DNA from: Reyranella massiliensis 521
Lineage (GTDB): Bacteria > Pseudomonadota > Alphaproteobacteria > Reyranellales > Reyranellaceae
Assembly (NCBI GenBank): GCA_945860205.1
Contig: CAMARK010000027.1
Span: 1-50,055 of the forward strand
DNA: 50,055 bases
Direction of reading: 5' to 3'
Part shown: piece by piece, positions 5,334-8,708 of the stretch
How positions within the stretch are numbered: the stretch's first letter is position 1
How the letters are laid out: each line of letters starts with the position of its first letter
The notes under the pieces: model-generated
The model's input: the letters and a program-made list of their open reading frames with translations, nothing else
The model's database searches: none
What the model was told of the DNA's origin: nothing
Position numbers and translations under genes: made by a program

Positions 5334-6527
5334 ATGCCGGTCATTAACCGCATAGCGTCGTTTCACAAGGACATGACCGCCTGGCGCCACGACATCCATA
5401 GTCATCCTGAGACGGCCTTCGAGGAAGTGCGGACGGCCGACGTGGTCGCCGAGAAATTGAAGTCGTTCGGCCTCGAAGTTCACCGTGGCCTCGCCAAGAC
5501 CGGCGTGGTGGGCGTGTTGCGCTCGGGCACGTCGAAGCGGGCGATCGGGCTGCGCGCCGACATGGACGCGCTTGACGTCCTCGAGACCAATCAGTTCGAT
5601 CACAAGTCGACGATCCCGGGCAAGATGCACGCCTGCGGCCATGACGGCCACACGGTGATGCTGCTGGGCGCGGCCAAGTACCTGTCCGAGACCAAGAATT
5701 TCGACGGCACCGTCTACTTCATCTTCCAGCCGGCCGAGGAGAACGAGGGCGGCGGTCGCGTCATGGTGGAAGAGGGGCTGTTCGAAAAGTTCCCGGTCGA
5801 GGGTGTCTACGGCATGCACAACATTCCGGGCATCCCGGTCGGCAAGTTCGCCGTCCGTCCCGGCCCGATGATGGCCGCCTATGACATCTTCGAGGTCGTC
5901 CTCAAGGGCGTCGGCGGGCACGGCGCCATGCCGCATCACACGATCGATCCGGTGGTCGTGGGCGCCCACATCGTGACGGCACTGCAGTCGATCGTGGCGC
6001 GCAACATCGATCCGATGGATACCGCCGTGGTCTCTACCACGCAGATCCACGCCGGCGACGCCTGGAACGTCATTCCCCAGGAATGCGTGCTGCGCGGCAC
6101 GGTCCGCACCTTCAAGAAGCCGGTGCAGGACATGATCGAGAAGAACATCGAGAAGATCTCGCGCAATGTCGCGGCCGGCTTCGGCGCCGAAGTGATCAAG
6201 TGGCGCTACGAGCGGCGTTATCCGGCGACCGTGAACAGCGTGCAGGAGACCGAGTTCGCCGCCCACGCCGCGTCGGCGCTGGTCGGCCTCGACAACGTCA
6301 ACCGCAACCCGACGCCTGCCATGGGCAGCGAGGACTTCGCCTGGATGCTGCTCAAGAGGCCCGGCTGCTACATCTGGATCGGCAATGGCGACGGTGAAGG
6401 CAGTTGCATGGTCCACAACCCGGGCTACGACTTCAACGATGAGATCCTGCCGATCGGTGCCTCGTACTGGGCGACACTCGTCGAGCAGCAACTGGCCCGT
6501 CGCGCCGTGCCGCAGGCGGCGGAATAG
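5334..6527 (+). CDS. M20 family amidohydrolase (hippurate hydrolase / N-acyl-amino-acid hydrolase type)
   Basis: Cytoplasmic di-metal amidohydrolase of peptidase family M20D, 397 residues, expected to cleave N-acyl amino acids. Metal-binding motifs are visible: MHACGHDGHT near residues 99-108, the PAEE glutamates at about 134-136, H162 in YGMHN, and the C-terminal histidine in 'MVHNPGYDF'. The inserted dimerisation domain begins with 'GVGGHGAMPHHTIDP'. The start is supported by GGAGAG 5 bases upstream. Coming after a complete peptide importer, it probably processes the imported substrate. The exact substrate is not readable. Confidence 0.93.
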   Translation: MPVINRIASFHKDMTAWRHDIHSHPETAFEEVRTADVVAEKLKSFGLEVHRGLAKTGVVGVLRSGTSKRAIGLRADMDALDVLETNQFDHKSTIPGKMHACGHDGHTVMLLGAAKYLSETKNFDGTVYFIFQPAEENEGGGRVMVEEGLFEKFPVEGVYGMHNIPGIPVGKFAVRPGPMMAAYDIFEVVLKGVGGHGAMPHHTIDPVVVGAHIVTALQSIVARNIDPMDTAVVSTTQIHAGDAWNVIPQECVLRGTVRTFKKPVQDMIEKNIEKISRNVAAGFGAEVIKWRYERRYPATVNSVQETEFAAHAASALVGLDNVNRNPTPAMGSEDFAWMLLKRPGCYIWIGNGDGEGSCMVHNPGYDFNDEILPIGASYWATLVEQQLARRAVPQAAE

Positions 6528-6564
6528 GCGTCGATCGGGCAACGGCTTGCGGCCGTCGTCTGTG

Positions 6565-7419
6565 ATGGGGCATCCCTACGAGCATGAACGGGTAGGTCTG
6601 GCGACGATCCACGGCAAGGAGCTGGCGATCGCGCCGCCGTTTCGCCGCCTGCTGGGAGCCGAGATCGTGGTCGCTCCCGATCTCGATACCGACACCTTGG
6701 GCACGTTCTCCGGCGAGGTGGCCCGACCGGGCCCCATCGTCGAGACCTGTATGATCAAGGCCGAGCTTGCCTTCCGGACCCTCGATGTCGACTGCGCGAT
6801 CGCCAGCGAAGGCAGCTATGGTCCGATCGATCGGGTGCCGCTGAAGCCCGCCGGCGTGGAGGTGATGGCCTTCATCGACCGCCGTCGCGGGATCAAGATC
6901 ATCGAGACCCTGGCCACCCACCGAACCAACTGGCGCCTGCTGCGCTTCAAGGCCGGCGATCCTGAAGCCGCGGCGGCGGTGACGGCGCTGGGCTTTCCCG
7001 GGAGCGGCGTCTTCGTGATCGCCAGCAGCGATGCCAGCCGGCCGGTCAAGGACCTCGCGCGACTGGACGACGTGGTATCGGCAGTCGACCAGGAGGCGAA
7101 CCGCTCTGACGACGGGCTTGCGATCGTGATCGCCGACATGCGGGCGCACCGCAATCCGATGCGGATGAAGGTGCTGCGCGCGCTGTCCTGGAAGCTCGCC
7201 AGGAGATTGCACTGTCTCTGCCCGGTCTGCAGCGCCCCCGGGTTTGGCCACATCGACTCCCGGCGCGGCCTGCCCTGCGAGGATTGCAGCGGGCCGACGC
7301 ACTGGATCGATTTCGAGATTGATGGCTGCGCCGCCTGCGGCCATGCCGTCGCGCGTCCGCGCAAGGACGGTCGCAGGACCGCCGCGAAGCTCTCCTGCGT
7401 GGCCTGCCGGGGCGCCTAG
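6565..7419 (+). CDS. DUF6671 family protein with cysteine-rich (zinc-binding) C-terminus
   Basis: A 284-residue protein of unknown function. The N-terminal half (HGKELAIAPPF, DTDTLGTFSGE, RPGPIVETCMIKA, AIASEGSYGP) matches what I recall of the DUF6671 domain. The C-terminal ~90 residues contain four pairs of the CxxC type (CPVC, CEDC, CAAC, CVAC), suggesting two zinc ribbons. ATG 6565 gives a start matching the domain beginning; an earlier in-frame ATG at 6385 is inside the M20 gene. It lies 37 bases after the amidohydrolase and may be co-transcribed. No catalytic residues can be assigned with confidence. Confidence 0.75.
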   Translation: MGHPYEHERVGLATIHGKELAIAPPFRRLLGAEIVVAPDLDTDTLGTFSGEVARPGPIVETCMIKAELAFRTLDVDCAIASEGSYGPIDRVPLKPAGVEVMAFIDRRRGIKIIETLATHRTNWRLLRFKAGDPEAAAAVTALGFPGSGVFVIASSDASRPVKDLARLDDVVSAVDQEANRSDDGLAIVIADMRAHRNPMRMKVLRALSWKLARRLHCLCPVCSAPGFGHIDSRRGLPCEDCSGPTHWIDFEIDGCAACGHAVARPRKDGRRTAAKLSCVACRGA

Positions 7420-7475
7420 CCGGCAGCCGCAGCTGGGGGCAGCGCTTTCGTCATGAAGATGCGCCCTGAAAACAA

Positions 7476-7499
7476 CAAAGCCGCCCGTAGGCGGCTTTG
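7476..7499 (-). terminator. Rho-independent terminator, best read on the minus strand
   Basis: A perfect 10-base inverted repeat (CAAAGCCGCC at 7476-7485, GGCGGCTTTG at 7490-7499) surrounds a 4-base loop. On the minus strand it is followed by TTGTTTTC, a T-rich tail; on the plus strand no T-run follows. It therefore ends the minus-strand operon, 18 bases after the stop of the small gene at 7518-7601. It may also stop plus-strand transcripts from 7419 less efficiently. Confidence 0.7.
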
Positions 7500-7517
7500 C
7501 GCCGACTCCTGTCGATC

Positions 7518-7601
7518 TTACGGGCCGCAATTCACCAGAACAGGAACGATCCCGGTGGCGGTTACGGTGAAGGTCGTCGGTGTCGTAATGGTGGACTTCA
7601 C
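7518..7601 (-). CDS. Putative 27-residue peptide gene with extended Shine-Dalgarno
   Basis: A 28-codon frame starts with GTG at 7601 and stops with TAA at 7518. The peptide begins MKSTITTPTTFTVTATG and ends VPVLVNCGP: threonine- and valine-rich, one cysteine near the C-terminus, no charged residue except Lys2. Upstream lies a 13-base stretch complementary to the 16S rRNA 3' end, with GGAGG 7 bases before GTG. The terminator hairpin begins 18 bases after the stop. It is the last gene of the minus-strand run, 78 bases after the DoeB-like deacylase. I do not recognise the peptide; a signalling peptide, modified-peptide precursor or small structural protein are possibilities only. Confidence 0.5.
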   Translation of the reverse strand: MKSTITTPTTFTVTATGIVPVLVNCGP

Positions 7602-7603
7602 GT

Positions 7604-7616
7604 AATCACCTCCTTT
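7604..7616 (-). promoter_or_regulatory. Unusually long ribosome-binding site
   Basis: On the minus strand this reads AAAGGAGGTGATT, complementary over about 12-13 consecutive bases to the conserved 3' end of 16S rRNA. Spacing to the GTG at 7601 is near optimal. It is far stronger than any other ribosome-binding site in the window, where most are 4-7 bases. That is the main reason to call the short frame a gene. Confidence 0.7.
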
Positions 7617-7679
7617 CGAAATTGATGGGACCTCAGCCTCGCACAGTCGGGGCAGGCGGTAAAATGAATTGCCTCCGGG

Positions 7680-8708
7680 TCAGCCCGCGATATCCGTTGC
7701 CAGATGGAACAGGCAGTCGCCGCGCTCGCAGCGTGCGGGCACGCGCTTGCAGAGGACCAGGCCGTCGCGCTTGAAGGCCAGGAGATCGGGCTCGCGCCAG
7801 GGTGTGTGGTGGAAGTGGATGCGCGCGGCCGGTTGCCCCGCCTTGACCTCGGTGCCGAGGTCGACCAGCGGTTCGAACAGGCCGCTGTCGGAGGCGTAGA
7901 CGTAGTAGTCGTCGCCGCCGATCTCGGTGAGCCGTGTCGGTGTGCTCGCCGGCACGGGGCCCTGCAGCAGGCCGACATGGGCGAGCACGCGCCGCATGCC
8001 ATCCTGCGCCACCTTCAGCGAGGCGGGTGTCACCAACCCGCCGCCGCCCAGCTCGGTGCCCATCGACACCACGCCCTGGCGGTACGAGGCCGACGTGAAG
8101 GTGCGGCCGCCGCCTTGCGGTGCCCCCGAGATGTAGCTCACCGGCGCGCCGAAGGCTTTCAGGAGGCCCACGACCTTGGTCATGCGCTCGGGATCGTCAT
8201 GGCGCGGCGCCAGCGCGCTCGGGATGTAGGTGAGGGAACTGCCGCCGGAGTGGAAGTCGAAGCTGTAGTCGAAGCCCGGCAGCAGGGCGTGCTCGATCCA
8301 GTAGGCGATCTGCGGGGTGATCGTGCCGTCGGCGTCACCGGGAAAGGAGCGATTGAGATTGCCGTCGTCGATCGGCGATGTCCGCTGTCCGGCCATCGCG
8401 GCGGGAAAATTTGCCGACGGCAGGATCACGAGCCGGCCTTTTATGTCCTTGGGTTCGAGGCTGCGGATCAGGTTGCCGAGCCCGATCTGGCCCTCCCATT
8501 CGTCGCCATGGTTGCCGGCCTGCATCAGGACGCTGGGACCATCGCCGTTCTTTATGCGCACGATCGGGATCGGAATCCAGCCATAGGCCGAGCGGTGCAC
8601 CGAATGCGGCACGCGGACGAAGCCGGTGGCTTTGCCCTCGGCGGTGAGGTCGATGTCGGCCGACAGCCGGCTCATGGCCGTGAAGTCGGTGGGCTTGGTA
8701 GTGCTCAA
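7680..8708 (-). CDS. Succinylglutamate desuccinylase/aspartoacylase-family zinc deacylase (DoeB-like)
   Basis: A 342-residue M14-related zinc hydrolase that removes acyl groups from N-acylated amino acids. The zinc ligands are visible: GNHGDEWEG (H67, E70) and DFHSGG (H153), plus the substrate-binding NLNRSFPG near residues 117-124. Full-length resemblance is to DoeB-type N-acetyl-diaminobutyrate deacetylases, but no ectoine hydrolase gene is nearby, so the substrate is open. The start is TTG at 8708, overlapping the upstream TGA and supported by GGAG 8 bases before it; ATG 8675 is an alternative. It is coupled to the creatininase-family gene and an amino-acid ABC importer. Confidence 0.88.
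   Translation of the reverse strand: MSTTKPTDFTAMSRLSADIDLTAEGKATGFVRVPHSVHRSAYGWIPIPIVRIKNGDGPSVLMQAGNHGDEWEGQIGLGNLIRSLEPKDIKGRLVILPSANFPAAMAGQRTSPIDDGNLNRSFPGDADGTITPQIAYWIEHALLPGFDYSFDFHSGGSSLTYIPSALAPRHDDPERMTKVVGLLKAFGAPVSYISGAPQGGGRTFTSASYRQGVVSMGTELGGGGLVTPASLKVAQDGMRRVLAHVGLLQGPVPASTPTRLTEIGGDDYYVYASDSGLFEPLVDLGTEVKAGQPAARIHFHHTPWREPDLLAFKRDGLVLCKRVPARCERGDCLFHLATDIAG

Follow-up and report, generated by a model that had tools for sequence, protein, structure and literature searches.

A ribosome site, a short frame and an internal 16S-tail mimic in Reyranella: a diverged CC2171-type element that may be a ribosome-gated RNA

Why should a near-maximal ribosome site stand before a reading frame of only 27 codons? 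This is the question raised by positions 7518-7616 of the window (the whole 50,055-nucleotide stretch of Reyranella massiliensis 521 DNA that was analyzed). The original prediction was a strongly translated small protein or peptide precursor at the end of an operon, linked to an amino-acid importer, a creatininase and a DoeB-like deacylase. We propose, with a probability of about one half, that the element is Reyranella's version of the CC2171 family, a ribosome-gated regulatory RNA with the peptide as a by-product; the gating is the step that we infer. The features of the element, given in window coordinates, are as follows.

7464-7630, minus strand: the RNA element as a whole, from 5' block through short frame to terminator, of a diverged CC2171 type; 179.1 bits with model R1, E 3.4e-50
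7635-7645, minus strand: conserved upstream block TGTGCGAGGCT, from the 25-locus Reyranella alignment; putative promoter
7605-7617, minus strand: extended Shine-Dalgarno, 13-base complement of the 16S rRNA 3' end; run scan and duplex energy
7518-7601, minus strand: short frame of 27 codons, GTG at 7601-7599 and TAA at 7520-7518; frame kept, amino acids without detectable selection
7579-7610, minus strand: helix of 7610-7599 with 7590-7579, half of the site and the start codon against codons 4-8; helix 2 of the Reyranella consensus
7541-7554, minus strand: internal 16S-tail mimic CGGGATCGTTCCTG, also a local hairpin in Reyranella; motif search and consensus structure
7475-7500, minus strand: intrinsic terminator with an 11-pair stem; terminator scan, helix 6 of the Reyranella consensus structure

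The minus strand reads GAAAGGAGGTGATTAC-GTG from 7617 to 7599, with 7 bases between GGAGG and GTG. Its first 13 bases, GAAAGGAGGTGAT at 7617-7605, pair without mismatch with the 16S tail ATCACCTCCTTTC, a tail sequence taken from eight Reyranella loci in genomes other than the window's own. The duplex energy of the site is -24.4 kcal/mol, compared with -10.5 kcal/mol for TAAGGAGG. Nowhere else in the 50-kb window are more than 9 consecutive bases of the ideal 14-base site matched, confirming the claim that no other ribosome site in the window is as strong, and AAAGGAGGTGATNNNRTG occurs once in the 4.98-Mb genome. The 13-base complement, the GTG frame and the terminator were all found on the minus strand where they had been described, with two small corrections: the 28 codons reported earlier count the stop, leaving 27 residues, and the terminator begins 17 rather than 18 bases after it. 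As 0.8 terminator-like sites are expected by chance per 2.1 kb scanned, the case for the terminator rests on its conservation in relatives. The peptide had no match in Pfam or NCBIfam, in keeping with the statement that it belongs to no known family; the RNA, by contrast, has a relative in CC2171 (RF01867), as set out below.

When GTDB genome contigs were searched for the 5' block, 76 loci came up (Reyranella, Bradyrhizobium, Nitrobacter, Rhodospirillales and others), including a Reyranella massiliensis locus (L077) with a peptide identical to the window's. AAAGGAGGTGATNNNRTG was found in 25 of 65 Reyranella genomes, one copy each. The covariance model R1, built from 22 of these 25 copies (the window copy among the 22), recovered the same 25 genomes at 167-194 bits when all 65 were searched, the other 40 scoring 32.2 bits or less; 40 of the 65 genomes are thus without a recognisable copy, a count that takes in incomplete assemblies. 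Presence across the 65 genomes is all-or-none. The only full-length R1 match in the window's genome is at 7464-7630 on the minus strand. A search with the peptide alone gave 21 matches in 19 of 61 genomes, of which 12 were the element by eye (the window included) and nine were chance-like, and a plasmid search with one element gave no match.

The 25 copies have the upstream block, ribosome site, frame and terminator in common. The frame has 27 codons in 23 copies, 28 in one copy with a 3-base insertion and 25 in one copy with a 6-base deletion that retains the stop; the reading frame is kept in these relatives. Before the GTG stands GATCC in 17 copies and GATTAC in eight. The preceding gene, as identified from a C-terminal motif within 700 bases upstream, is a deacylase in five copies, a methyltransferase in ten and neither in the other ten, indicating that the element is not tied to the importer operon; the suggested link to importer, creatininase and deacylase is not supported by this count. 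The end-of-operon placement is right as to position, the site lying 62 bases past the deacylase frame, but the element has a conserved upstream block of its own. On the best reading the peptide is incidental and has no connection with the importer. The neighbouring gene that follows in the window runs towards the element (frame 6385-7419, plus strand), and we observed in it a DUF6671 domain (PF20376), of unknown function.

The TGTGCGAGGCT block is Reyranella-specific and lies approximately where other alphaproteobacteria carry a -10-like sequence: relative to the site, alphaproteobacterial representatives are T-rich at -50 to -48 and have a -10-like stretch at -27 to -21. A sigma-70 promoter scan of 6500-8600 found none. 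Terminator-like ends, approximately 165 bases from the start of the site, were present in 82 of 99 representatives compared to 8% of shuffles. We take the element to be a small RNA about 170 bases long, present once per carrier genome, that ends in its own terminator and probably has its own promoter as well.

CC2171 is a small RNA family that reportedly goes back to Landt et al. 2008. Positions 1-159 of its Rfam model, RF01867, align with 7624-7478 of the window over the full length of the model and at the right place, with a chance-level score of 11.1 bits (E 2.7), against a cut-off of 75 bits; the window copy is therefore not a formal member of RF01867. Among 28 genomes searched, RF01867 matched the element in seven of nine Reyranella carriers at 21.6-28.7 bits, with no element match in the window's own genome or in G012. 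These low scores are unspecific: places other than the element reach 28.0 bits in Reyranella (G018), the top match of G014 (26.8 bits) falls off the element, and six of 14 control genomes gave matches, one of them above the cut-off. Rfam at the gathering cut-off found no CC2171 in eight Reyranella loci and five others.

The relationship emerges from intermediate loci. One of 11 Rhizobiales loci, L190, reached the cut-off with 83.9 bits exactly on the element, and L283, from a genome (G250) of the window's family and another genus, scored 79.1 bits. Laxer thresholds added L223 (81.7 bits), L224 (69.8), L225 (68.9), L151 (60.6), L226 (50.6), L227 (49.9), L228 (43.6), L054 (42.9), L047 (40.4), L184 (36.7), L229 (36.6) and L199 (26.4). 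In the reverse search, R1 matched the element in seven of 14 outside loci, clearly in L047 (57.4 bits) and L054 (36.9), and weakly but at the right place in L050 (26.2), L173 (23.5), L151 (20.3), L225 (18.7) and L283 (17.0); a chance match of R1 in the window scores 14.3 bits. R1 found the terminator only in L199, L183 and L190, and had no match in L223, L224, L206 and L320. Where RF01867 has the 5' block cAAcaAucGAAAGGAGGUGAUCCAGUG, the window reads CAAtttcGAAAGGAGGTGATtacGTG. The 5' block of the element also precedes other short frames, of 14 residues in Bradyrhizobium, 20 in L047 and 24 in L151. We take this chain of matches to show that the window element is a remote homologue of RF01867.

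We then considered whether the start and stop codons are themselves conserved. Most elements were collected by site plus start codon, and the free tests of the start codon are the scan of 372 alphaproteobacterial genomes and the RF01867 search. The 372-genome scan used a pattern without a start codon and found the 15-base 16S complement in 55 genomes, one each (50 of the 55 places were retrieved, and all 55 strings were counted). The triplet at the start position was GTG in 26, ATG in 24, TTG in three, GCA in one and GCC in one, with no CTG; the GCC case is a 16S antisense match, judging by its sequence. The eight outside RF01867 matches that were read, found pattern-free (L223-L229 and L251), all have the site followed by ATG or GTG, the site being exact in seven and changed at one base in L229. 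In the order of Bradyrhizobium, the long site with a start codon was present in 89 of 199 genomes, once in 88 and twice in one (86 of 90 places retrieved), compared to a single match of the reversed control pattern in the same genomes. A further carrier set had one copy per genome in 21 of 21. An antisense copy of the 16S end with its spacer was rejected as an explanation: TAAGGA.. follows the 16S tail in eight Reyranella loci, unlike in the element.

In 99 of 105 diverse representatives the stop comes after 13-36 codons; in six it comes later, and in none earlier. The other two frames, an imperfect control that also contains the conserved beginning, close within 13-36 codons in 29 and 22 cases and earlier in 50 and 51. 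(The set of 99 representatives lacks the frames outside 13-36 codons; the set of 105 was made without that filter.) From 301 elements, we removed those with fewer than 40 bases upstream or 150 downstream and those duplicated in the first 150 bases; 94% of the remaining 209 distinct elements, many of them related, have a stop within 13-30 codons. Dinucleotide shuffles fell within range in 30%, counted from 10 codons, which favours the null. These counts argue for selection on the start and stop themselves, or on something with which they are linked. Two other groups of frames came up in the collection. L256, L273 and L299 have a single GAAAGGAGGTGATCC site before frames of 56-57 residues with signal-peptide-like starts, for which neither Pfam nor NCBIfam gave anything above cut-offs. 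A similar site in L330 and L185, before a glutathione S-transferase-like frame (by eye) and an 80-codon frame, respectively, is probably due to chance.

Conserved start, stop and frame would also be expected of a true small-protein gene, in which the RNA features would give strong, controlled translation of an acting peptide. The two Reyranella indels, of 3 and 6 bases, both keep the frame as aligned here, a SHCH..PRS...TWILAS resemblance recurs between families, and certain Reyranella peptides have, by eye, a hydrophobic, signal-like character. We nevertheless regard this reading as doubtful, since synonymous changes are not in excess within the frame, neither in Reyranella nor among 25 pairs taken from other groups. 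In ten Reyranella sister pairs with 46 changes, 15.5 were synonymous (null 14.3, p=0.33), and tree parsimony gave 45.8-46.8 of 144 (null 42.1, p 0.19-0.25, three runs); in a tree count with 145 changes the three codon positions had changed 47, 46 and 52 times. As a positive control, six 26-codon stretches of the upstream methyltransferase gene from 10 Reyranella loci were analyzed, and all six showed the excess, with 36-68 synonymous changes against nulls of 16-24 (all p<0.05). The element frame from the same 10 loci yielded 10 of 38 (null 10.2, p=0.57). The 25 other pairs had 193 changes, 58.8 of them synonymous (null 53.9, p=0.17). Bradyrhizobium had 51, with 3 synonymous, below the null of 14.7. 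Internal stops had arisen 0 times compared with 2.0 expected (p=0.11). Moreover, the TWILAS codons of the recurring resemblance are the 16S-tail mimic described below, where the W/R/G base tends to track the base opposite, and the peptides tried had no family match. Within the groups tested, the amino acids show no detectable purifying selection. Conservation of the peptide rather than of the DNA alone, named beforehand as the supporting outcome, was thus not seen; of the strongly translated small protein, the selected start and open frame are supported, and the peptide as the selected product is not. A selected start and stop around a peptide whose constraint went undetected is seldom met with, and it suggests that the function lies in the act of translating.

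We examined the RNA for pairing partners of the ribosome site. Inside the frame is a stretch that resembles the 16S tail. One group has CTGGATCxTCGCCTCC there, another has GTGGAGCAGCCTTC, and Reyranella has CGGGATCGTTCCTG. Compared with shuffles, the strongest duplex that the ribosome site can form within the next 100 bases had a mean z of -1.30 over the 99 representatives; z was below -1 in 65% of them, and 24% reached p<0.05 singly. That duplex ends between 2 bases past the stop and 30 bases before it in 81%, compared to 30% of shuffles. The base before the start codon and the opposite base of the mimic form a Watson-Crick pair in 66 of 115 elements, where 32.2 would be expected. Among the representatives they do so in 37 of 70, with an expectation of 24.3 (p=0.0003 by permutations that ignore relatedness). 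Frames outside 16-36 codons were removed for this test, and with them the 14-residue Bradyrhizobium frames. In L304, L305 and L309 the mimic is in a different reading frame than in their group, and the peptide is changed. By a simple first-match rule the motif was absent in 36 of 151 eligible elements. The ribosome site of the window copy pairs best with a stretch other than the mimic, and that duplex is unremarkable (z -0.29). The mimic therefore appears to pair and covary with the ribosome site in many members of the family, and weakly so in the window itself.

Simple sequestration of the ribosome site was considered and rejected, as whole-RNA folds leave it equally open (0.370 compared to 0.362 in shuffles). 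The Reyranella helix of 7610-7599 with 7590-7579 shows changes on both sides in two of 10 pairs among 22 copies, and one pair is broken in the window copy. For the Reyranella structure as a whole, the cells paired, the cells changed on both sides and the score all exceeded 500 of 500 shuffles, while the number of pairs changed on both sides was reached by 94 of 500 shuffles and that of pair types by 240 of 500. In all six Bradyrhizobium-type copies that were folded, the site and start codon fall within a long hairpin whose opposite strand consists of codons of the frame. One Bradyrhizobium copy (L054, 1715-2090) adjoins a tRNA gene, by an Rfam tRNA match, and has its ribosome site and GUG within a hairpin of that type.

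Rfam lists CC2171 as an sRNA, and the element could be read as a plain base-pairing sRNA, with the 16S complement and start codon as target or folding constraints and little or no translation. We consider this unlikely: a start position with three kinds of start codon only, at a fixed place, and a constrained stop are hard to explain without ribosomes. In addition, two previously predicted Caulobacter ncRNAs are translated according to the accessible part of Schrader et al. 2014 (PMC4117421). A further reading is that of a 30S sponge, in which the long complement would soak up free small subunits or mask the 16S tail, the frame serving only to clear the ribosome afterwards. A complement of 12-15 bases that occurs once per carrier genome, with duplex energies of -24 to -29 kcal/mol, would suit such a sponge, which leaves the covarying internal mimic unexplained and which we hold to be quite improbable. 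A leader peptide with an attenuator for a downstream gene, to which the short frame followed by hairpins and a terminator and the same-strand downstream frames of L199, L031 and L054 might point, is hardly credible given the convergent next gene of the window and nearest frames (mechanical ones) that differ by eye among 13 loci.

For the reading that we prefer, the Reyranella form of the CC2171 family as a ribosome-gated RNA, the following course is proposed. When few 30S subunits are free, the ribosome site would pair with the mimic or with early codons. A 30S subunit that binds would outcompete the internal pairing, translate through the mimic and stop near it, and this would change how stable the RNA is or which part of it lies exposed. 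A starting ribosome must cross the mimic and stop near it, which would give the RNA a bound and an unbound state. The parts of this scheme are present in the sequence; the switch that joins them is our proposal. More tentatively, and with well under even odds, CC2171 RNAs may form a ribosome-sensing class, one per genome, that combines a near-perfect complement of the 16S tail with a copy of the tail sequence inside the RNA, and in which translation of an unconserved peptide would set the state of the RNA and the cell would read its level of free ribosomes. What the family appears to show is an RNA filed as an sRNA with a selected start and stop in nearly all copies read here and peptide constraint undetected. 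It offers a concrete gene in Caulobacter and rhizobia for asking whether bacterial RNAs sense ribosome availability, and a caution that a perfect ribosome site with an open frame is no proof of a functional peptide.

In the literature on CC2171 (RF01867), within the parts accessible to us, we found no description of its frame. The accessible part of the Rfam 15 paper (PMC11701678) mentions CC2171 solely among the families, as having gained one covarying pair, and that of a Mesorhizobium study equates MH_s33 with CC2171 (PMC5596092). The element goes unmentioned in the accessible portions of Hahn et al. 2016 (PMC5082802), those of a stress-regulator paper (PMC5869019) and an iron paper (PMC3751524) contain nothing on CC2171, and a word count over the main text of a survey of peptide coding by bacterial sRNAs (PMC5521070) found no Caulobacter, Rhizobi- or Alphaproteobacteria.

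Several known RNAs invite comparison. CcnA is described, in the accessible part of its report, as a Caulobacter RNA at the origin of replication (PMC8959179); CC2171, going by its name, would be located away from that site. BbsR14 of Bartonella bacilliformis (PMC7717549), which we compared by its partial description only, likewise has anti-Shine-Dalgarno motifs within a small RNA, and differs in that this description contains no long Shine-Dalgarno and no frame. The element has in common with rnTrpL of Sinorhizobium meliloti (PMC10117765, as far as its accessible text goes) a small transcript, a very short frame and a link between translation and RNA function. However, rnTrpL is leaderless and part of the trpE attenuator, whereas our element has a near-maximal ribosome site and the window shows no same-strand downstream gene. 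From typical members of CC2171 the Reyranella copies differ in scoring far under the cut-off and in codons 2-5, which are GTGAA.. and similar in place of GTGTCTCATTGTC, so that the CAUUGUC:GACAAUG helix of typical members is absent; the Rfam output for CC2171, moreover, shows no reading frame. With CC2171 they share the 16S complement, within a 5' block that is probably the same, a colinear full-length alignment, the terminator hairpin and a single copy per carrier, the last being a trait of the copies read rather than a stated Rfam criterion.
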